Origin: a virus
Virus record (IMG/VR): IMGVR_UViG_3300032240_000554
Location: 1 to 28,683 of that record
DNA: 28,683 bases
Direction: 5' to 3' (one strand)
This document shows, piece after piece, positions 2,644 to 26,182 of the stretch (positions are counted from its first letter, which is position 1; every line of letters begins with the position of its first letter). The notes beneath the pieces were generated by a model. It ran no database searches. It was not told the origin of the DNA and saw only the letters and a program-made list of their open reading frames with translations. Position numbers and translations under genes: made by a program.

Positions 2644-2673
2644 AAAACCGGGTGTTGACAAGCCCGGTTTTTT
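2644..2673 (+). terminator. Rho-independent terminator with a -35 box in its loop
   Basis: A perfect 9-bp stem (AAAACCGGG at 2644-2652 with CCCGGTTTT at 2663-2671) closes a 10-base loop and runs into T residues up to 2673. It sits 17 bases after the stop of the 177-aa gene. The loop contains TTGACA (2655-2660), the -35 element of the promoter described next, so the terminator and the promoter share bases. Confidence 0.8.
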
Positions 2674-2683
2674 CATGTATAAT
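2655..2683 (+). promoter_or_regulatory. Consensus sigma70-type promoter nested in a terminator
   Basis: TTGACA (2655-2660) and TATAAT (2678-2683) are both perfect consensus hexamers and are separated by 17 bases. The start site should fall near 2690. That leaves a leader of about 25 bases containing AAGGAG (2702-2707) before the ATG at 2715. The promoter should drive the 392-aa gene and the kinase gene. Confidence 0.85.
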
Positions 2684-3895: not shown

Positions 3896-4372
3896 ATGCC
3901 TAAATGTTATCAATTGATTGGAGTGCCGGCTAGTGGAAAAAGTACCTGGTACAAAAATCAAGACTGGCTAGTTGAGGACAAAAAGGATCACAAGTATGTA
4001 TCTACTGATCAGCATGTTGAAGGATATGCTCTTGATCAAGGTAAGACTTATAGTGAAGTCTTTGATGAGTACATGCCTACTGCCGTTAAGCAAATGATGG
4101 TGAATGTGAACTTTGCCGCGGCATTGAAAATTGACATTGTTTGGGATCAAACCAGTACCACCATAGCAAGCAGGGCTCGCAAGTTTAATGCATTACCCGA
4201 ATACGAACATATTGCTGTGGTATTCCGTACTCCGGATCGTTCGGAATTGGATGTAAGATTATCAGGACGTCCGGGTAAACACATTCCTAAGAACGTGATT
4301 GACAGCATGATTGCTGGTTGGGAAGAACCCTCACTGGAAGAAGGATTTAAAGAAATTTGGTACGCTGTTTGA
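3896..4372 (+). CDS. P-loop polynucleotide-kinase-like protein (kinase domain only)
   Basis: This 158-aa AAA_33-type kinase would transfer a phosphate from ATP, most likely to a nucleic-acid 5' end. Walker A is GVPASGKST (residues 9-17). A second block (STDQHVEG, about 37-44) is in the position of the substrate-binding Asp of T4 Pnkp. DQTSTTIASRARKF (about 82-95) parallels the T4 segment that follows the kinase core strand. RLSGRPGKHIPKNVIDSM resembles the T4 region of the phosphate-contacting lid arginine. The length equals the T4 Pnkp kinase domain alone; the C-terminal HAD phosphatase domain is absent. The gene starts 2 bases after the upstream stop. A nucleoside or small-molecule kinase is the main alternative. 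Confidence 0.75.
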   Translation: MPKCYQLIGVPASGKSTWYKNQDWLVEDKKDHKYVSTDQHVEGYALDQGKTYSEVFDEYMPTAVKQMMVNVNFAAALKIDIVWDQTSTTIASRARKFNALPEYEHIAVVFRTPDRSELDVRLSGRPGKHIPKNVIDSMIAGWEEPSLEEGFKEIWYAV

Positions 4373-4397
4373 CAGACTATGTATAGTCTGTTATAAT
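4369..4397 (+). promoter_or_regulatory. Consensus sigma70-type promoter with a palindromic spacer
   Basis: TTGACA (4369-4374) and TATAAT (4392-4397) are perfect consensus with a 17-base spacer. The spacer is almost entirely an 8-bp inverted repeat (ACAGACTA 4372-4379 and TAGTCTGT 4384-4391) around TGTA. It could be an operator or a weak terminator hairpin for the kinase gene, whose last codons overlap the -35 box. The predicted start near 4404 leaves a short leader with AAAGAAAG before the ATG at 4421. Confidence 0.82.
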
Positions 4398-12813: not shown

Positions 12814-14067
12814 ATGACAATATATAATTATACTAAAATACAAACGGGTGGACAACCTAACGACGGAACTGGCGATAATATTCGAGATGCATTTATCAAG
12901 GTAAACAATAATCTCGATTTATTGTTCACTTTAGGATCAAATAATGTAATTTTAGCAGATATATATAATACGTTAACCTATGTAAAAGGTGTATTAAACA
13001 CTATTCCTTCAACCGTTTCGGCTGCAGCTTCTGTTTCTTATGTTAACTTATCTACCACTACTGTATATACTGCTTTATCAAATTCTATTGCAGCAAGTAC
13101 TGCCTCTGTTCTTGCTACTACTGCTACTGGTTCAATTTTAGGTTTAGTTAAAGTTGGTACTGGTATTACCAGAGCAGCCGATGGAACTATTTCTGTGCCA
13201 ATTGGGCCAAGTGGCCCAAGTGGAGTAAGTGGCCCACAGGGTAATCAAGGTGCAAGTGGAGTAAGTGGCCCACAAGGGATAGGTAATCAAGGCCCACAAG
13301 GACCACAGGGAGTGCAAGGTGTTCAGGGACCTAGTGGCCCAGGTGGTGGCGGCGCTGGCGTACAAGGACCACAGGGTAACCAGGGACCACAGGGAGTGCA
13401 AGGTGTTCAGGGACCTAGTGGCCCAGGTGGTGGTGGCGCACAAGGACCACAGGGTAATCAAGGGCCTGCCGGTGCCGGTGTTACAACCGCCACAATTATT
13501 ACAAATCCTACTACCTATCTAGACAACAGTGTTAATATTGAAATTGTAAAATTATTTGGTGGAGTTAGTAATACTGCTCCAGATGGCAAGGTCATATACG
13601 AAAGTAACAAAAATATGCACGGACTACAAATGTATAGTAGCTATGGTCCAGCAGAAACTGTAGGGTTGGTTGGTCAAGGTACTACATTTATTACTGGAGC
13701 AAACACAGGCACCAATCAAATTGCCGCTTACGTGGCAGCTGGATATGGTGAAAGCGGTCCCGGAATTCAGTTAAAAATAAATTCTAATTCTATGGACAGT
13801 AGTAGAATTTTCCTTACTAATACAAAAACCGTCGGAGGAACCAGCATCTCGGATTGTGGTGTAAAGATTACAAGTTCTGTTGGATTGGATGGCGATTTAT
13901 TCATACGTGGGATTATGAAGTTATATCCATTAGGTACGGCTCCATCAGATCCAACAGCGGGCATGTTTGCTGTTGCAAATAGAACTGGATGGGATCCTGC
14001 TAGTAAAGGATCAGGAAATGCTTATCCTGTATTCTATGATGGCGCTACTTGGATTGCTTTGTATTAA
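12814..14067 (+). CDS. Collagen-like tail fibre protein
   Basis: A 417-aa virion protein. The N-terminal 130 residues ([33 protein letters not shown]...) carry a [19 protein letters not shown] block that I know from attachment ends of T4-like fibre proteins. Residues about 131-220 are Gly-X-Y repeats ([12 protein letters not shown]) interrupted by Gly-rich bridges (GPGGGGAG). The C-terminal 200 residues form a beta-rich head ending in [29 protein letters not shown], typical of a tail-tip receptor or attachment domain. It would form a trimeric collagen-type shaft. It leads a run of five fibre genes behind the late promoter at 12780. Confidence 0.88.
13300..13439 (+). repeat. Two copies of a collagen-coding unit, 84-bp spacing
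   Basis: A GGACCACAGGGAGTGC...-type unit starts at 13300 and again at 13384. The copies are near identical for about 55 bases and code for the same [19 protein letters not shown] segment. They differ only at single bases, so this looks like an in-frame duplication within the first collagen-like gene. Confidence 0.7.
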
Positions 14068-16316: not shown

Positions 16317-18437
16317 ATGACGTTTATTAATAACTTACAACCTCTAGATAACCCTACCAGTACCTCAACGATTGTAATTCCTGTAGTTGATAATTCAACA
16401 AATCCCGGTATTACTAAAAAAATCACACTGGCCAAATTAACAGCATTAGCTGTTGGACCACAAGGTAATAGAGGTCTTCCTGGCGTTTTAGGTCCACAAG
16501 GCGAATCTGGGCCACAAGGTCCGCAAGGAGTAAGTGGGCCAGCTGGAGAATTTGGACCACAAGGACCGCAAGGACCAAGCGGAGTTAGTAATACTCCAGG
16601 ACCCCAAGGCGCAGATGGACCAAGTGGTCCTAGTGGTCCAAAAGGACCAAGCGGGGTTAGTGATGTTCCTGGACCACAAGGACCAAGTGGACCACAAGGA
16701 GATATTGGACCAAGTGGACCAAGTGGAGCAGATAGCACAATTAGAGGTCCAAGTGGTGTAAGGGGTCCAAGTGGACCTCGTGGAAATCAAGGACCTCAGG
16801 GAAGATTAGGAAATCAAGGACCCCAAGGTAATCAAGGTGTGGCAGGAAATGTAGGACCTGCTGGAGCAACAGGGCCTAGTGGTGCTGATAGCTTTGTTGC
16901 TGGTCCTACTGGGCCAAGTGGAGCAAGCGGCCCTACTGGTATTAGAGGACCGCAAGGTCCTAGTGGCCCTATTGGACTAAGTGGTCCTAGTGGTGCTGAC
17001 AGTACAATTTCTGGACCACAGGGAAATCCTGGAACGCCAGGCGGCCCTAGTGGGCCAAGCGGAGTTTCCGGAGCTCGAGGTAATCAAGGACCTAGTGGAC
17101 CACTTGGACCACAAGGTAACGAAGGTCCTGCAGGTAGCATAGGTCCTTCTGGGACTCCTGGTGGGCCAAGTGGTCCAAGTGGTGTTGGAGCAACAGGACC
17201 GCAGGGTAACCAAGGAGCGCAAGGAGCGCAAGGAGCCCAGGGATCTGTAGGTGCGGCAAGTAATGTAGCTGGACCAAGTGGAGCAACAGGACCACAGGGA
17301 AGTCAAGGCTCACAAGGACCAGTAGGTGCAGCAAGTAATATAGTTGGACCAAGTGGCCCACAAGGAAGTCAAGGCTCACAAGGACCGGTAGGTGCAGCAA
17401 GTAATATAGTTGGACCAAGTGGCCCACAAGGACAAGAAGGTCCGCAGGGACCTCAAGGTGCGGACAGTAACATAGCAGGACCACAGGGAAGTCAAGGACC
17501 ACAAGGAAGTCAAGGCTCACAAGGACCTTTAGGACCACAGGGTACACAAGGTACTCAAGGAGCAATTGGTTCTAGTGCCTATAATCAAGATTTAAACACA
17601 ACTAACAGTGTAACATTTGGTGTTATGACTGCTAGTACATCTACTGGTCCTGTATATAGTGGATTCCAAAATAACTATATATGGATTAGAGGTGTGCCAA
17701 ACGGTGACACTACAGCTACATCTGTTTCTCAAAGTACCAACGGAATTACATTTGAAACAAGTAGAAATAGTGGTCAAAGCGGTTTAAGAAATCAACTTCA
17801 AGCAGGCGATACCATTGGATATCTAGCATTTAGAGCACAGACTACTACAAATGCTACCACCAATGTAGGTATAAACAGTGCTCAAATCTATGCCAGTGCT
17901 ACTGAAATTCCTACTGCTACGGCAGCAGGTGGTAGAATTGTTATGGCGACTGTAAACACTGGAACAGTTACAGCTGGAAATAGATTAATATTAGATAATT
18001 TACAAAATTCTTATCAATCATCTGTACATCAATTTGCCAGTGCTTCGGGCGCAACTAGATATGCTCAAGTAAACTCTTATGGAATAGTTCTTCAAAAGGG
18101 ATTTAGAAATAGTTTATATGACTGGAGCGGAGCTGGCACAATAGCAACTACAGCAGGAACATACAGTGTCGACGCTAGTAGCGGAACTGTTCATAGTATA
18201 TTATTAGGCGGTAGTATCACATTAAGTGGAATGCTTACAACATCTAATGGAAATAGCGTAACTATTATTCTTACTCAAGACGGTGTTGGCGGTAGAACAC
18301 TAACAACAACAGGAACCTGGTTATGGCAAGGTGGTATTAAAACTCTAAGTACAGGTGCTGGTGCTGTTGATTTATTAAAGTTTGAATACTACAACGGAAC
18401 CTATTATGCCGAACTAAAGAAAGGCTATACAGCTTAA
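16317..18437 (+). CDS. Collagen-like tail fibre protein with C-terminal beta head
   Basis: A 706-aa protein. A short N-terminal domain (1-46) is followed by about 370 residues of Gly-X-Y repeats (about 47-418) in which Pro sits almost always in X (GPS, GPQ). Interruptions of the GADSxxxGP type (ADSTIR, ADSFVA, AASNIV) recur. The C-terminal 285 residues form a beta-rich head with [18 protein letters not shown] and end [37 protein letters not shown]. It starts 2 bases after the previous gene's stop. A 66-bp duplication lies near 17316-17430. It probably forms a trimeric shaft for host recognition. Confidence 0.88.
17316..17430 (+). repeat. 66-bp tandem duplication in the second collagen-like gene
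   Basis: A 66-bp unit coding for [22 protein letters not shown] starts at 17316 and repeats at 17382, with a more diverged 75-bp relative just upstream. The second copy diverges after about 49 bases. The repeat is in frame and suggests recent expansion by slippage or unequal recombination. Confidence 0.7.
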
Positions 18438-18529: not shown

Positions 18530-21500
18530 ATGGCATACATTCCAGATTTTAACTCAATTCTCGCTGACACCAGCCCTAATGACGCTGATACCCTCTTTAT
18601 TGTTAAGCAGTCATCTCTCGTTCAGACTTTAACTGTTGCAAGAGCAAGAACTTTATTAGCTACACAAGGCGAAGCAGGACCACAAGGACCTACAGGAGCA
18701 AGAGGACCCCAGGGAGAAATAGGACCACAAGGACCAAGTGGTCCTCAGGGTAATCAAGGTAACCAGGGACCAAGTGGTCCTAGCGGACCTATAGGTCCTC
18801 GTGGTGTAAGTGGTCCAAGCGGTCCTATCGGTAATCAAGGTCCTAGCGGTGTTCGTGGACCTCAGGGTAATCAAGGTTTACTAGGTGGCGATGGTCCACA
18901 GGGTAATCAAGGAGATCCCGGTCCAACAGGTCCACAAGGTGTTAGTGGACCAAGTGGTGCTATACAAACTGCTGTAGCAAACCTACTAGGCGGCGCTGCC
19001 GGAAGTTTACCATATCAAAGTTCTCCCAATAATACTGCGTTCTTAGCTATAGGTCCACAGGGATATATTTTACAAAGCTCAGGATCTGGCCCAACATGGG
19101 TAAGTACAGCTAGTATTTTTGCTGGTACAGCAAATAACGCCAAACAACTATACATTAATACATTTACTAATAGCGATCCAACTACTTATTATCTAGATAT
19201 GAGTGCCGGTGTTGGTGCTAACTTCGATGTTGGGGCTAACAGTAAATTATTTTATGTTCCTAGTACAGGGCTTTTAACTGTACCTAAGATTAAATCCACA
19301 GATACAACAAATGCCACAAGTACAGTTACAGGTGCCGTTGTTGTTCAAGGTGGACTAGGTGTTGCCAAAGACATTTACTTTGGCGGAAATTTATATCAAA
19401 ACGGTGTATTATTCACAGGTGGACTGCCAACATTAGCGGCAAACCGTATTTTATATACAAATGCCAGCGGAACAACTACTGCTACCAACTCATTACAATT
19501 TAATGCATCGACAGCTAGAAATGGTGCGGGTACAGGAGTAGCAACTTTAATTGCTGACTTAAACTTACAAATGGCTGACAACTCCGAGGGGTATGTTAGT
19601 TTTACCAATGCTACTGGTAATACTGTTTGGCAAATGGGAGTTTACGATCGTCCAGATTTACTAGCTGGGGTTACTACCGCTACCAGCCTTATAGAATTTT
19701 ATGGTAACACTGGAGGAACAACTCCTTTATTGTTTACCAATCAGGGTAAAGCAAGCATTGGCCAGGTTACAGATACAACAAGTCCTCAATACTCCAGAGA
19801 ATACGATCCACAGGCCACTGTTGAAGTTGGTACAGACCTAAGAGCACAGATATTAAGAATTCGTAGTACAAGTGCTAATCCTGCTCTAGGACAACATGGT
19901 ATCTATTTTGCTGACGGTACATATCAATATACTGCTTCATTGAATATAAGTGGACCAAGCGGAGCCACAGGACCAAGTGGACCAAGTGGTCCACAAGGTA
20001 ATCAAGGACCAAGTGGCCCAAGTGGCGTAAGTGGTGCTAACGGAGTTTCAGGACCAAGTGGACCAAGTGGTGTTAACGGAAACATCGGAGCCAGTGGTCC
20101 AAGTGGATTATCCGGGCCACAAGGAACTAGTGGACCAAGTGGTGCTGACAGTACAATTAGTGGACCTCAAGGTCCTAGTGGTCCTAGCGGTTCAGGTGCC
20201 CAAGGTGCCAGCGGTGTATCAGGCCCTAGCGGTTTAAGCGGGCCAAGCGGCCCTAGTGGAGCACAAGGGGCCAGCGGGCCAACCGGAGCCAGTGGTGTTA
20301 GTGGTGTTAGTGGTATCAGTGGAGTATCAGGACCAAGTGGTGTTGGCGCAAGTGGTCCAAGTGGTATAAGTGGTGCTACAGGACCAAGCGGGGTTAGTGG
20401 AGTATCAGGACCAAGTGGTGCCGACAGTACAATATCAGGTCCAAGTGGTCCTAGAGGTACTAGCGGACCAAGTGGTGTACAAGGACCAAGCGGTAATAGA
20501 GGTCCAAGTGGACCAAGTGGTGTACCAGGACAATCAGTTGTTATTAAAGGATCCGTATTCGATTCTACAAGTCTACCAGGTAGCGGTGCTAGTTTAGGTG
20601 ATGGATATATCGAAACTAGTACAGGACATTTATGGGTTTACACAGGTGCGGTAGGCGGAAGTTCTGTTAACGGATTTATCGACGTTGGTCAAATTGTAGG
20701 ACCACAGGGTAATCAAGGTAATCAAGGACCAAGTGGACCAAGTGGAGTGTCGGGACCTAGTGGACCTAGCGGTTTAAGTGGTCCAAGTGGACTACCAGGA
20801 ACACCAGGTGCCAGCGGTCCTAGTGGAGTTGGCGCTAGTGGCGCTAGTGGTCCAAGTGGACCATTCAGTGTAGGACCAAGTGGTCCAAGTGGTCCGAGCG
20901 GAGCAGACAGTAAAATTTCAGGACCAAGTGGCCCTGTTGGTAATCAAGGATCAAACGGAACAAGTGGGCCAAGTGGGCCAAGTGGCGTTAGCGGAACTAA
21001 TGGTAACCCGGGAAATCAAGGAGCAAGTGGACCTCAGGGACCAAGTGGCCCTAGCGGACCGGGAGGTGCCCAAGGTATTGGCAATCAAGGTCCAAGTGGA
21101 CCAAGTGGACCTAGCGGTTTAAGTGGTCCTAGCGGTACTCCAAGTACTATATCAGGACCTAGTGGTCCGAGTGGTATAAGTGGTCCAAGTGGTGTCACTG
21201 GCGGACCAGGTTCAAGTGGACCACAGGGACCAAGCGGAACAAGTGGACCTAGTGGAGTAGGAGGTCCAACTGGAGCAAGTGGACCTAGTGGAACAAGCGG
21301 GCCTAGCGGACCTCAAGGAACAGGACCTCAGGGTCCAAGTGGACCTAGTGGAGCAGATGGTCCAAGTGGTGTAAGTGGACCACAAGGTAACGCAGGCGGT
21401 CCTGGAACAAGTGGACCAAGTGGCCCTAGTGGTGCTAGTGGACCAAGTGGACCACAAGGCGGATTTGGTCCACAAGGACCAAGTGGGCCTCAATCATCTA

Positions 21501-22696
21501 CTTCAGGACCAAGTGGACCTAGTGGAGCACAAGGTACTGGCGCAAGCGGTGTTCAAGGTCCTCAAGGACCGAGTGGACCTCAAGGACCAAGCGGTCCTAT
21601 TGGACCACAAGGTGCTGATAGTTTTGTTGCTGGTCCAAGCGGTCCGCAAGGTAACCAAGGTGTTGGAACTACAGGCTCTCAAGGTGCTCAAGGTAATCAA
21701 GGACCACAAGGACCAAGTGGCCCGCAAGGATCTACAGGTAATGTTGGACCTCAGGGTAACCAAGGACCGAGTGGTGCTCAAGGAGAGGTAGGGTTAGGAA
21801 CTACAGGACCTCAGGGTAATCAAGGTAACCAGGGATCAAGTGGTCCACAAGGTAATCAAGGTGTCGGTACACAAGGTGTCCAAGGGCCTCAAGGACCACA
21901 AGGTAACCAGGGTGGCCCAGGTGCTACAGGACCACAGGGGCCGCAAGGCGATCCAAGTAACGTAGCAGGTCCAAGTGGACCAAGTGGTGTTCAAGGTAAC
22001 CAGGGTAATCAAGGTAACCCAGGTATCCAAGGTAATCAAGGTAATCAAGGTAACCCAGGTAACCAAGGTAATCAAGGTAACCAAGGTAATCAAGGACCTC
22101 AAGGGCCTCAAGGGCCACAAGCATCTCAAGGTAACCCAGGTAATCAAGGTAACCCAGGTAATCAAGGTAATCAAGGACCTCAAGGGCCGCAAGGACCTCA
22201 GGGACCAAGTGGACAAACTGTTGTTGGTAACCAAGGACCACAAGGACCACAAGGTAGTCAAGGTGTTAGTGGACCAAGCGGCCCGGGTAGCGGAGGTGGA
22301 GCTACTGTAAGTGTAACATCAACTTCTGTATTGTATAGTCCAAGCGGAACTGACATTGCCGGTAATACTAATTTTTACACCGACGGAGCCGGTAACGTAA
22401 CTGCTACAGGTACAATATCGTCAACATCTGATGAAAGATCAAAGAGCAATATTAAAACTATTGAAAATGGTCTTGACAAGGTACTAGAAATGCGAGGTGT
22501 AACATTCGAAAAAGACGGTCGTAAGAGTTCAGGTGTAATTGCTCAGGAAGTTAAAAAAGTATTGCCAGAACTAGTTATGGAAGATGACAAAGGAATGTTA
22601 AGTGTTGCGTATGGTAACATTGTAGGTGTATTAATTGAAGCTATTAAAGATCTAAAAGCCGAAATTGATGAGCTGAAGAAAAGTACCAATAAATAA
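18530..22696 (+). CDS. Giant collagen-like fibre protein with C-terminal S74 chaperone domain
   Basis: A 1388-aa, multi-block fibre protein. Order: short N-terminal domain (1-47); collagen block 1 (about 48-143); beta-rich insert (about 144-472, with [21 protein letters not shown]); collagen block 2 (about 474-667); small beta insert (about 668-722); collagen block 3 (about 723-1258, the longest, ending with 16 GNQ/GNP/GIQ-type units); a beta segment; and the S74 domain. In that domain SDERSKSNI (S1300) is the self-cleavage site, and [15 protein letters not shown] and [15 protein letters not shown] form the coiled chaperone tail. By analogy to endosialidase and other phage fibres, the tail guides trimer folding and then cuts itself off before S1300. 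Driven by the late promoter at 18489. Confidence 0.93.
21995..22174 (+). repeat. 9-bp tandem repeats coding Gly-Asn-Gln/Pro
   Basis: Eleven consecutive 9-bp units of GGTAAYCAA type (21995-22093) and five more (22130-22174) encode GNQ, GNP and GIQ triplets. A short GPQ stretch with a single Gly-to-Ala break (PQASQG) separates them. Slippage by whole units would change fibre length without a frameshift. Confidence 0.8.
22688..22695 (+). promoter_or_regulatory. T4-type late promoter-like element before the collar gene
   Basis: AATAAATA overlaps the last codons and stop of the giant fibre gene. A T4-type +1 would be at 22701. That leaves a 22-base leader with GGAG (22710-22713) nine bases before the GTG start at 22723. 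It is one mismatch from TATAAATA. Confidence 0.55.
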
Positions 22697-23886: not shown

Positions 23887-24129
23887 ATGTTTCATCCCCT
23901 TCTTGGTGATGCCAGAGATCTTAAAGATCTTGAATTAGAAAATAAAATATTAGAACTTAGCAAGAAATATCACATAGCCCTAAGAATGGGTCAAGGTGGT
24001 GTAGCTAACCAAATTGCCATGGCATTAGATATGTACAAAAGCGAACAATATAATCGTCAGGCAGAAGCAATGACTAAATTAGTTAGTAAAGAAGATAAAG
24101 ACTTAGACGATTTAATAAATGTTGAATGA
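23887..24129 (+). CDS. Small hypothetical protein of the structural cluster
   Basis: An 80-aa, mainly helical protein (LGDARDLKDLELENKILELSKKYHIALRM..., MALDMYKSEQYNRQAEAMTKL). The 3' end overlaps the next gene by 11 bases. Possibly a short chaperone-like or assembly factor, since it lies straight after the collar gene, but no family is recognised. No membrane helix. Confidence 0.62.
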   Translation: MFHPLLGDARDLKDLELENKILELSKKYHIALRMGQGGVANQIAMALDMYKSEQYNRQAEAMTKLVSKEDKDLDDLINVE

Positions 24130-24679
24130 TAGACCAGACACCTTTATATGGCCCGCAGATTTTGCCTGTACAATTATAGATGAAAATGTAATACTACCTA
24201 ATCATTATAATCTTAAAATTTACATTGAACCAACTCTTCCTGTTACTGAAAACTTTGGTATAGGATTCCAAAAACTCAAACATATCATATTTGATTGCTT
24301 AAACAATAGTGTATTAATTAATAAAAACAATACACTATTACCAGCCTTATCATCTATAGATACTAATATAGTACACTTGCCAGCAGAGCCCTACGATTTT
24401 TATGTTGGCGCAACTCTGTTTTCTAAATTTATTTCAATAACCAAAAAATATTTTACCATATATCAAATTAGTATTGACAGCGCAATTGGCGATCGTGTAC
24501 AATATACTATGAGTGATCCTTGGGAAAGCGGTTTAGATTTTGATGGCGATTTTTGGTGGAACCATGATACGCTAGATACAGGTAGTAATAATACAACCAC
24601 TTGGGATAAATTAAATCTGTCCGAAGGCCCACGATTCCAACCAACGGTAATCAAAGGCGGAAAAAGTGAAAATCAATGA
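24119..24679 (+). CDS. Hypothetical protein of the structural cluster
   Basis: A 186-aa protein, start inside the 3' end of the previous gene. It has aromatic-rich beta segments (TFIWPADFACTIIDE; YNLKIYIEPTLPVTENFGIGFQKLKHIIF) and a C-terminal DPWESGLDFDGDFWWNHD block. The pattern of short strands and acidic loops suits a virion-associated or assembly protein. A promoter-like pair TTGACA/TACAAT with an 18-base gap (24474-24503) lies inside it; I do not trust it. It overlaps the next gene by 14 bases. Confidence 0.62.
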   Translation: MLNDRPDTFIWPADFACTIIDENVILPNHYNLKIYIEPTLPVTENFGIGFQKLKHIIFDCLNNSVLINKNNTLLPALSSIDTNIVHLPAEPYDFYVGATLFSKFISITKKYFTIYQISIDSAIGDRVQYTMSDPWESGLDFDGDFWWNHDTLDTGSNNTTTWDKLNLSEGPRFQPTVIKGGKSENQ

Positions 24680-25187
24680 ATACGGACAAGTAAGTATTAC
24701 AGAACAAGAAGCATTCGATGCTTTGTACTCTGGTACAATTACCAATGTAGATAACGTATATCTTGACAATACTGATGTTATTGAAAAATTCAACAGCAGT
24801 GTAAAATCCAACGCAGATCGAATTCCGTTATTATCATTACCCAAAGATCTAAATGATATAAGCAAAGAGTTATTTGATCAAGCAAATCAAAATAACTGGT
24901 TTATGCCCAATGACTACTGTCCAAATCTTGTAGAAATGTTATACGGAATGTGCTCTACTCCTGAACAAACAGATAGAGTAAGTTTAGAACTAGAATTGTT
25001 TATCCAACATAACATGATGGACCTACTGTATTACCTTAAATACTTGGTAGACACCTTGCGTGAAAATAATATTCTGTGGGGTGTAGGTCGCGGTAGCAGT
25101 GTAGCAAGTTATGTACTGTTCTTAATCGGAGTACATAAAATAGATAGTATTAAATACAATCTTGATATAAAAGAATTCTTAAAATAG
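24666..25187 (+). CDS. DnaE-like fragment lacking the catalytic aspartates
   Basis: A 173-aa protein with a GTG start. Residues about 105-173 (RVSLELELFIQHNMMDLLYYLKY..., LWGVGRGSSVASYVLFLIGVHKIDSIKYNLDIKEFLK) line up with the bacterial Pol III alpha region before the active site, whose GPGRGSGAGSLVAYALKI...FERFLN pattern is very distinctive. It ends at FLK, where the family continues to the PDxDxD catalytic motif. The catalytic Asp residues, palm and fingers are therefore missing, so it cannot be a polymerase by itself. The N-terminal 100 residues are not recognisable. It could bind a beta-clamp, DNA or the host polymerase, or be a relic maintained for another reason. The frame is intact. 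Confidence 0.78.
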   Translation: MKINEYGQVSITEQEAFDALYSGTITNVDNVYLDNTDVIEKFNSSVKSNADRIPLLSLPKDLNDISKELFDQANQNNWFMPNDYCPNLVEMLYGMCSTPEQTDRVSLELELFIQHNMMDLLYYLKYLVDTLRENNILWGVGRGSSVASYVLFLIGVHKIDSIKYNLDIKEFLK

Positions 25188-25488: not shown

Positions 25489-25875
25489 ATGTCAAAAATC
25501 AAAGGTAAACTCATTCCTTTACGTGATAGAATTTTTGTCAGCGACATGGATTTTGGCATGGAAAAAACTATTGGTGGAATTTTACTTCACTCTGATGATG
25601 GTAAAAGTACAGGTATTCATCCTAGGTGGGGCAAGGTTTGGGCAATTGGTCCAACTAACACCTCTGGAGTAACCATCGGAGAGTGGGTTCTTATTGAGCA
25701 CGGAAGATGGACAAGAGGCATGGAATACGAAAACGATGACGGGTCTATTACCAAACTTCGTGTAGTTGATAACAATGCTATTCTCATGGCGGCTCCTGAA
25801 AAACCAGAAGGTGCTATGAGAAGCGAAGTAGTAGGTGCCGGGTCTAATTTTAATTTTAATATTCCCGGTTTATAA
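25489..25875 (+). CDS. GroES/gp31-like co-chaperonin
   Basis: A 128-aa co-chaperonin of the GroES fold. KLIPLRDRIFV near the N-terminus is the family's opening strand. IGGILLHSDDGKSTG is the mobile-loop region that contacts GroEL. GKVWAIGP, GEWVLIEHGRW and LRVVDNNAIL are the core barrel strands. Length and the long C-terminal extension are nearer T4 gp31 than host GroES (about 97 aa). It likely replaces GroES with host GroEL so that large capsid or fibre proteins can fold. The stop codon lies within a near-perfect hairpin (25857-25892). Confidence 0.88.
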   Translation: MSKIKGKLIPLRDRIFVSDMDFGMEKTIGGILLHSDDGKSTGIHPRWGKVWAIGPTNTSGVTIGEWVLIEHGRWTRGMEYENDDGSITKLRVVDNNAILMAAPEKPEGAMRSEVVGAGSNFNFNIPGL

Positions 25876-25892
25876 AATAAACGGGAATATTA
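25857..25892 (+). other. Hairpin over the co-chaperonin stop codon
   Basis: TAATATTCCC at 25857-25866 pairs with GGGAATATTA at 25883-25892, and the inner GTTTAT/ATAAAC arms also pair with a single G bulge, giving roughly a 16-bp stem around a short A-rich loop. The stop codon TAA (25873-25875) lies near the loop. There is no T-tract after it. It is 5 bases from the real terminator hairpin and may stabilise the mRNA end. Confidence 0.6.
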
Positions 25893-25897
25893 ACTCC

Positions 25898-25927
25898 ATA
25901 GGGCCTTGACAGGCCCTATTGTTTTTT
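25898..25927 (+). terminator. Rho-independent terminator whose loop is a -35 box
   Basis: ATAGGGCC (25898-25905) pairs with GGCCCTAT (25912-25919) with no mismatch. The 6-base loop is exactly TTGACA (25906-25911). A T-tract (TGTTTTTT, 25920-25927) follows. It ends the co-chaperonin transcription unit, and the loop doubles as the next promoter's -35. Confidence 0.85.
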
Positions 25928-25934
25928 GTACAAT
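25906..25934 (+). promoter_or_regulatory. Sigma70-type promoter nested in a terminator
   Basis: TTGACA (25906-25911) is perfect and TACAAT (25929-25934) differs by one base; the spacer is 17 bases and includes the hairpin's right arm and T-tract. The start site should lie around 25940, which is also the ATG of the next gene. There is no Shine-Dalgarno in between. It would drive the gene run up to the clamp loader. Confidence 0.8.
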
Positions 25935-25939
25935 AATAT

Positions 25940-26182
25940 ATGGGACATAAAAAACAAATAGATGTAGCAGATGTTGTTAGACAGATTAATGCCGCTGCCT
26001 ACGAATGTACTAGTCCTTATAATGACGGGTTTGTTGGATGGGGTTATAAACAAGATCTTTACAGGATTAAATGGATTTTGGAAGATGCTCTTAAACGATG
26101 CCCAATATATTCTCCGGAGCCAGAATGGATACGAGAACAAGAAAAACAAAAACTTGTTAGGATACTAAAAGATGAAATGTAA
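25940..26182 (+). CDS. Conserved small phage protein, possibly leaderless
   Basis: An 80-aa protein with helices IDVADVVRQINAAAYEC, then CTSPYNDGFVGWGYKQDLYRIKWILEDAL, and a basic C-terminus (REQEKQKLVRILKDEM). The TSPYNDGF-GW-YKQDLYR-KW pattern is a familiar small phage family without known function. The ATG at 25940 is 6 bases after the -10 hexamer, so the mRNA may start at it. No Shine-Dalgarno is present and no other in-frame ATG is better. It overlaps the next gene by 11 bases. Confidence 0.66.
   Translation: MGHKKQIDVADVVRQINAAAYECTSPYNDGFVGWGYKQDLYRIKWILEDALKRCPIYSPEPEWIREQEKQKLVRILKDEM

Follow-up and report, generated by a model that had tools for sequence, protein, structure and literature searches.

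The element at positions 25898-25934 of the window (a complete virus record, 28,683 bases long, which may itself be a fragment) is characterized by a terminator hairpin whose loop doubles as the -35 box of the next promoter. We predict that it is a bifunctional intrinsic terminator and sigma70 promoter, often yielding a leaderless mRNA, and put the probability of this reading at about 0.83. Within some 45 bases it brings together three signals: one that ends a transcript, one that begins the transcript after it, and the start codon of the next gene. Its wider interest lies in the apparent selection of the same bases both as RNA, in the hairpin, and as DNA, in the promoter, with covariation, in many phages, and in their frequent coupling to a leaderless start codon.

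Read in order, the element consists of ATAGGGCC, TTGACA, GGCCCTAT, TGTTTTTTG and TACAAT (Table 1). By sequence and by scan the stem is perfect over 8 bp and TTGACA fills the entire loop; in the RNA fold of the 51-nt stretch around the element (-16.6 kcal/mol) the T and A at the loop edges can pair as well, giving 9 pairs and a 4-nt loop. A G+C-rich RNA hairpin with a U-tract directly after it is the signature of an intrinsic (Rho-independent) terminator, and the sigma70-type hexamers TTGACA and TACAAT, separated by 17 bases, match the consensus at 11 of 12 positions. The sequence-only reading had described this very stem, loop, T-tract and spacing, all of which the sequence and the scan bear out exactly; its pairing of a terminator with a near-consensus sigma70 promoter in one element is supported by the sequence and recurs in relatives. 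Absent from that reading was the position of the ATG of the next open reading frame (ORF), which lies 5 nt past the -10 box and so leaves no room for a leader or a Shine-Dalgarno sequence. It had also proposed a search of the remaining window for the same architecture, and this yielded a second copy at 2644-2683: AAAACCGGGTG-TTGACA-AGCCCGGTTTT, a T-tract and then TATAAT at a spacer of 17, followed by an ordinary leader with AAGGAG, so that this copy is not leaderless. The transcript that would end at the first element is that of the co-chaperonin unit; downstream of the 80-aa ORF lie genes for a cytidylyltransferase-like protein and a clamp-loader ATPase. By the clamp loader (55% identity), the nearest named phages are Pseudomonas jumbo phages belonging to the PA5oct group.

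Table 1. Features of the two fused elements and of the genes flanking the first
Feature	Coordinates	Strand	Details and evidence
Terminator hairpin	25898..25919	+	arms 25898-25905 (ATAGGGCC) and 25912-25919 (GGCCCTAT); sequence, scan, RNA fold, covariation in relatives
Hairpin loop TTGACA = -35 box of next promoter	25906..25911	+	sequence
T-tract TGTTTTTTG, within promoter spacer	25920..25928	+	sequence; predicted RNA 3' end near 25927
-10 box TACAAT, spacer 17	25929..25934	+	sequence
Second fused hairpin AAAACCGGGTG-TTGACA-AGCCCGGTTTT	2644..2671	+	-35 box 2655-2660; fold -17.4 kcal/mol
-10 box TATAAT of second copy	2678..2683	+	leader with AAGGAG precedes ATG at 2715
GroES-like co-chaperonin gene	25489..25875	+	Pfam Cpn10 1.2e-4; PHROG head morphogenesis / co-chaperonin
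80-aa ORF, no assigned function	25940..26182	+	ATG 5 nt past -10; predicted leaderless message

The 16-base hairpin GGGTCTTGACAGACCC was used alone as a query against viral contigs and against bacterial and archaeal genomes. Among 93 distinct viral sites it is followed by a T-tract at 89 and by both a T-tract and a -10 box at 88, with a spacer of 17 in 85 of 87, whereas none of the 38 sites in bacterial and archaeal genomes has the T-tract and the -10 box. Recurrence in relatives had been set beforehand as a test of the sequence-only reading, and 138 distinct elements were found in all; many were fetched by two fixed hairpin sequences, which biases their stems, while their T-tracts, -10 boxes and downstream genes are unbiased by the query, yet an element was kept only if it had a T-tract and a -10 box. 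By BLAST clustering these elements precede 45 downstream protein families, including thymidylate synthase ThyX, glutaredoxin, a DEAD/ResIII-type helicase, DnaJ and a Band 7 protein; given this diversity, several phage lineages are likely involved. Named isolates carrying the fused form are PA5oct, Phab24, S-T4 and S-PM2 (the last with TTGACT); the copies in the 186477 region of PA5oct and at 77578-77605 of Phab24 are of the leadered form. The deposited record of Acinetobacter phage Phab24 (locus L551, 1499-1520) has this hairpin annotated as a terminator on the other strand from the T-tract and lists no promoter at the site, though a DNA polymerase gene follows. In phage genomes lacking annotation the element could serve as a marker of transcription-unit borders.

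The closest known counterparts are the PeSLs (promoter-early stem-loops), reportedly described by Arbiol et al. in 2010 and Comeau et al. in 2014 as composite promoter-terminator motifs of T4-like phages, present in many copies in hyperplastic regions. What they share with the present element is a stem-loop terminator combined with a strong promoter of sigma70 type within a brief intergenic cassette of virulent phages, at borders where the genes vary. A citing paper presents them likewise as composite promoter-terminators of these phages (PMC4503421). The element described here has a terminator signature and a sigma70-type promoter within one such cassette, as judged from sequence signatures only. 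The difference is that here both signals share bases and the ATG often stands at the expected +1. Of 147 promoters in RB49, Phi1, T4, KVP40 and rV5, not one carries a -35 box inside a terminator loop; where separate terminators were identified in these five phages, they stop 16-32 nt short of the -35 box. Strict geometric identity with PeSLs is ruled out, as the reference PeSL phages keep terminator and -35 box separate and here the -35 box is the loop. The element is predicted to work like a PeSL, but its geometry differs and, in the main group, it has the start codon at its end. A full-text literature search of partial coverage returned no description of the -35-in-loop design, a result that does not establish its absence from the literature.

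A search with the co-chaperonin protein, in which the hairpin played no part in fetching, gave 31 loci, 26 of them distinct, and these were scanned for the element allowing G·T pairs and one-base variants of the -35 box. At 19 of the 26 there is a single element no further than about 1 kb 3' of the gene, with the ATG 5-6 nt past the -10 box in 18 of the 19; it is absent at the other 7, among them L027, which spans only 285 bases past the gene. Several copies of the element have an interruption in the T-tract. The gene after the element varies: it may be a homologue of the ORF at 25940, a nucleotidyltransferase, the clamp loader or another small ORF. Comparison of these loci shows the predicted element keeping its position after the co-chaperonin gene while the flanking genes change.

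A rival reading, one that has been proposed for PeSLs, is that the element serves primarily for recombination, as a short repeat at module borders by which blocks of genes are swapped, with secondary effects on transcription. Its presence at one border with differing small genes on its flanks in different relatives, the 45 downstream families in total, and the shuffling in T4-like phages that PeSLs are reported to mediate (in work cited in PMC4503421) would all fit such a role. Whole related genomes, however, carry only 1-3 elements each among many consensus promoters, and copies so few, of about 40 bases and with differing arms, offer little homology; the conserved -10 box, T-tract and ATG spacing are, moreover, unnecessary for recombination. 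We consider it very improbable as the primary function, and it is in any case compatible with the terminator-promoter reading rather than opposed to it.

Evidence on which molecule is selected comes from the pairing itself. In nine elements aligned in one register, none of them fetched by its hairpin sequence, 98.6% of the cells pair and three pairs change on both sides, one of them occurring as UA, UG, AU and CG; the covariation score exceeds those of all 500 shuffles and of all slid versions. In 31 hairpins with a T-tract, 13 of the non-Watson-Crick positions are G·T, none is A·C and 6 are of other kinds, against 4 G·T, 7 A·C and 18 others in 19 hairpins without one. Since a sense-strand G·T pairs in the sense RNA and not in the opposite strand, it is the hairpin of the sense transcript that is kept. 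This pattern argues for a predicted terminator over a cruciform or a protein-binding palindrome, and the 13 G·T as against 0 A·C departures disfavour a DNA cruciform or operator palindrome. The same counts give no support to the earlier proposal that the stem shapes the promoter DNA: what is preserved is an RNA hairpin and not a DNA palindrome or cruciform.

These data bear directly on the view that the inverted repeat is an operator, bound across the -35 box by a dimeric phage repressor or activator, with the RNA hairpin as a by-product. Palindromes at promoters often are operators; the arms are alike among many copies (GGGTC/GACCC, GGGCC/GGCCC), and another promoter of the window (4369-4397) has a palindromic spacer. 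Yet the arms vary with compensation, the loop ranges from 4 to 8 in size, a T-tract follows at 89 of the 93 viral sites, and departures that are G·T and never A·C keep the sense RNA hairpin while breaking a symmetric DNA site. Hence, we regard an operator as very improbable.

Whether the two signals overlap by chance was judged from their frequency in the DNA of relatives. A stem of at least 6 bp surrounds the -35 box in 23 of 210 TTGACA promoters, compared with 6 of 955 TTGACA sites without a -10 box and 0.53% of random positions; a stem with a T-tract is found in 15 of the 210 and in none of the 955. A promoter is close by at 13 of 79 strong terminators in relatives; at 10 of these 13 the -35 box sits within the hairpin, in a register that hardly varies. 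In favour of a merely accidental overlap of the two signals, in a genome that is compact and AT-rich, it may be said that promoter-like and terminator-like matches within the window are about as numerous as expected from shuffling. Such an accident is nevertheless ruled out for practical purposes by the enrichment against three controls, the conserved position and the contrast between viral and bacterial sites.

The second notable feature of the element is the proximity of the start codon. The +1 position normally lies about 7 nt after the -10 box, so that the messages are predicted to begin at the AUG. In fused promoters the ATG follows the -10 box at 5 nt in 8 cases, at 6 nt in 28 and at 9 nt in 16, the last mostly from one gene family; for plain TTGACA-N17 promoters the counts at 5, 6 and 7 nt are 5, 33 and 5. 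Over both kinds of promoter in this collection the distribution is two-peaked, with almost none at 10-16 nt and a second group at about 18-34 nt; a Shine-Dalgarno sequence is mostly present in this longer class and absent from the 5-6 nt class. RB49 has no such short-distance peak. In viral contigs, among the matches listed, an ORF of at least 50 aa follows the ATG in 103 of 153 cases at 6 nt versus 24 of 119 at 10 nt. Homologues of the ORF at 25940 are conserved from the ATG onward and have the same element upstream, with no ribosome-binding-site-like sequence before the ATG; the start codon thus stands at the expected +1 without a Shine-Dalgarno sequence. Judged by how far the ATG lies from the -10 box, around half of the copies overall would have a leader, as would the second copy in the window, and the leaderless feature is therefore not essential to the design. 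Overall, the findings suggest that leaderless sigma70 transcripts may be common among these phages.

Leaderless phage mRNA is familiar from lambda cI. The messages predicted here resemble such mRNAs in having the AUG expected at or next to the 5' end without a Shine-Dalgarno sequence, and differ in being predicted for many genes and in their association with a terminator-promoter element. One paper remarks that transcripts of phages frequently lack a leader (PMC5312081).

Two further groups may be noted here. In divergent phages (L011 17783, L012 16585, L017 18360, L025 18702, L033 19121 and L108 5618) the ATG of a DnaJ-like gene, of about 272 aa, is preceded by a promoter at a distance of 5-7 nt, with a hairpin round the -35 box in L017, L033 and L025. 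In a separate group of elements the ATG lies exactly 9 nt after the -10 box (e.g. TATAATGGTGTCATTATG), before one family of small proteins without assigned function (L391, L393, L411, L421, L424, L440, L442, L443, L446, L448, L450, L452, L460, L480, L481, L495, L496, L502 and L508).

On the terminator-promoter reading, one sequence would be read twice by a host-type sigma70 RNA polymerase. The co-chaperonin transcript would fold into the hairpin, meet the U-tract and end near 25927, as the anatomy indicates. In duplex DNA the loop and TACAAT would act as the -35 and -10 boxes, respectively, of the next unit's promoter, as their match to the consensus suggests. From the usual distance to +1, the next transcript would start on, or adjacent to, the A of the ATG at 25940, about 14 nt past 25927, and the leaderless message would be translated from its 5'-terminal AUG. 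Because the whole hairpin precedes the new +1, it would act only on the incoming transcript and could not regulate the new message as RNA. Termination and initiation would exclude each other in time, since polymerases at 25927 and at 25940 cannot both bind. Two units would thereby be kept apart in very little space, and the element offers a ready-made compact part that could separate units in synthetic constructs.

A more direct linkage can be envisaged in which the terminating polymerase is left on the promoter, retains or recovers sigma and initiates again on the spot, giving a relay of stop, restart and translation of the leaderless message. Such a relay is conceivable here because Escherichia coli polymerase remains on the DNA after intrinsic termination and is able to reinitiate at promoters close by (PMC6978380, PMC6978322). 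The likeness is that of a promoter near a terminator, which here overlap; the difference is that reinitiation was shown in vitro with separate sites, and in cells as antisense restarts, while the phage elements are known from sequence alone. We hold the relay to be rather doubtful. If true, upstream transcription would feed the downstream gene without read-through, as a widespread compact phage strategy. The element provides a natural substrate for testing post-termination reinitiation.

Several other features of the window deserve mention. Rfam and tRNA searches of the window gave no matches. The promoter at 4369-4397 is of consensus type and has a perfect palindrome in its 17-bp spacer (ACAGACTATGTATAGTCTGT overlapping the -35 box); several early promoters of RB49 likewise have palindromic spacers (TTGACAGGGGATC...GATCCCCTATAAT). 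Within the ORF at 24119-24679 the stretch 24474-24511 holds a promoter, TTGACA-18-TACAAT, and, 5 nt after it, an in-frame ATG (24509) that is a possible internal leaderless start. A long hairpin at 25856-25893, TTAATATTCCC(G)GTTTAT-AAA-ATAAACGGGAATATTAA, spans the co-chaperonin stop codon just 5' of the fused terminator and is possibly a 3'-end stabiliser of the co-chaperonin transcript. The 173-aa ORF at 24666-25187, whose place next to the co-chaperonin gene is conserved in relatives, has short matches to DNA polymerase families (phrog_11127, phrog_405) and resembles a separate fragment of a polymerase that has been split or has decayed. Three genes (12814-14067, 16317-18437 and 18530-22696) are rich in collagen-like GPSG/GPQG repeats, and the largest of their products (1388 aa) has a Peptidase_S74 (endosialidase-type chaperone) domain at its end.
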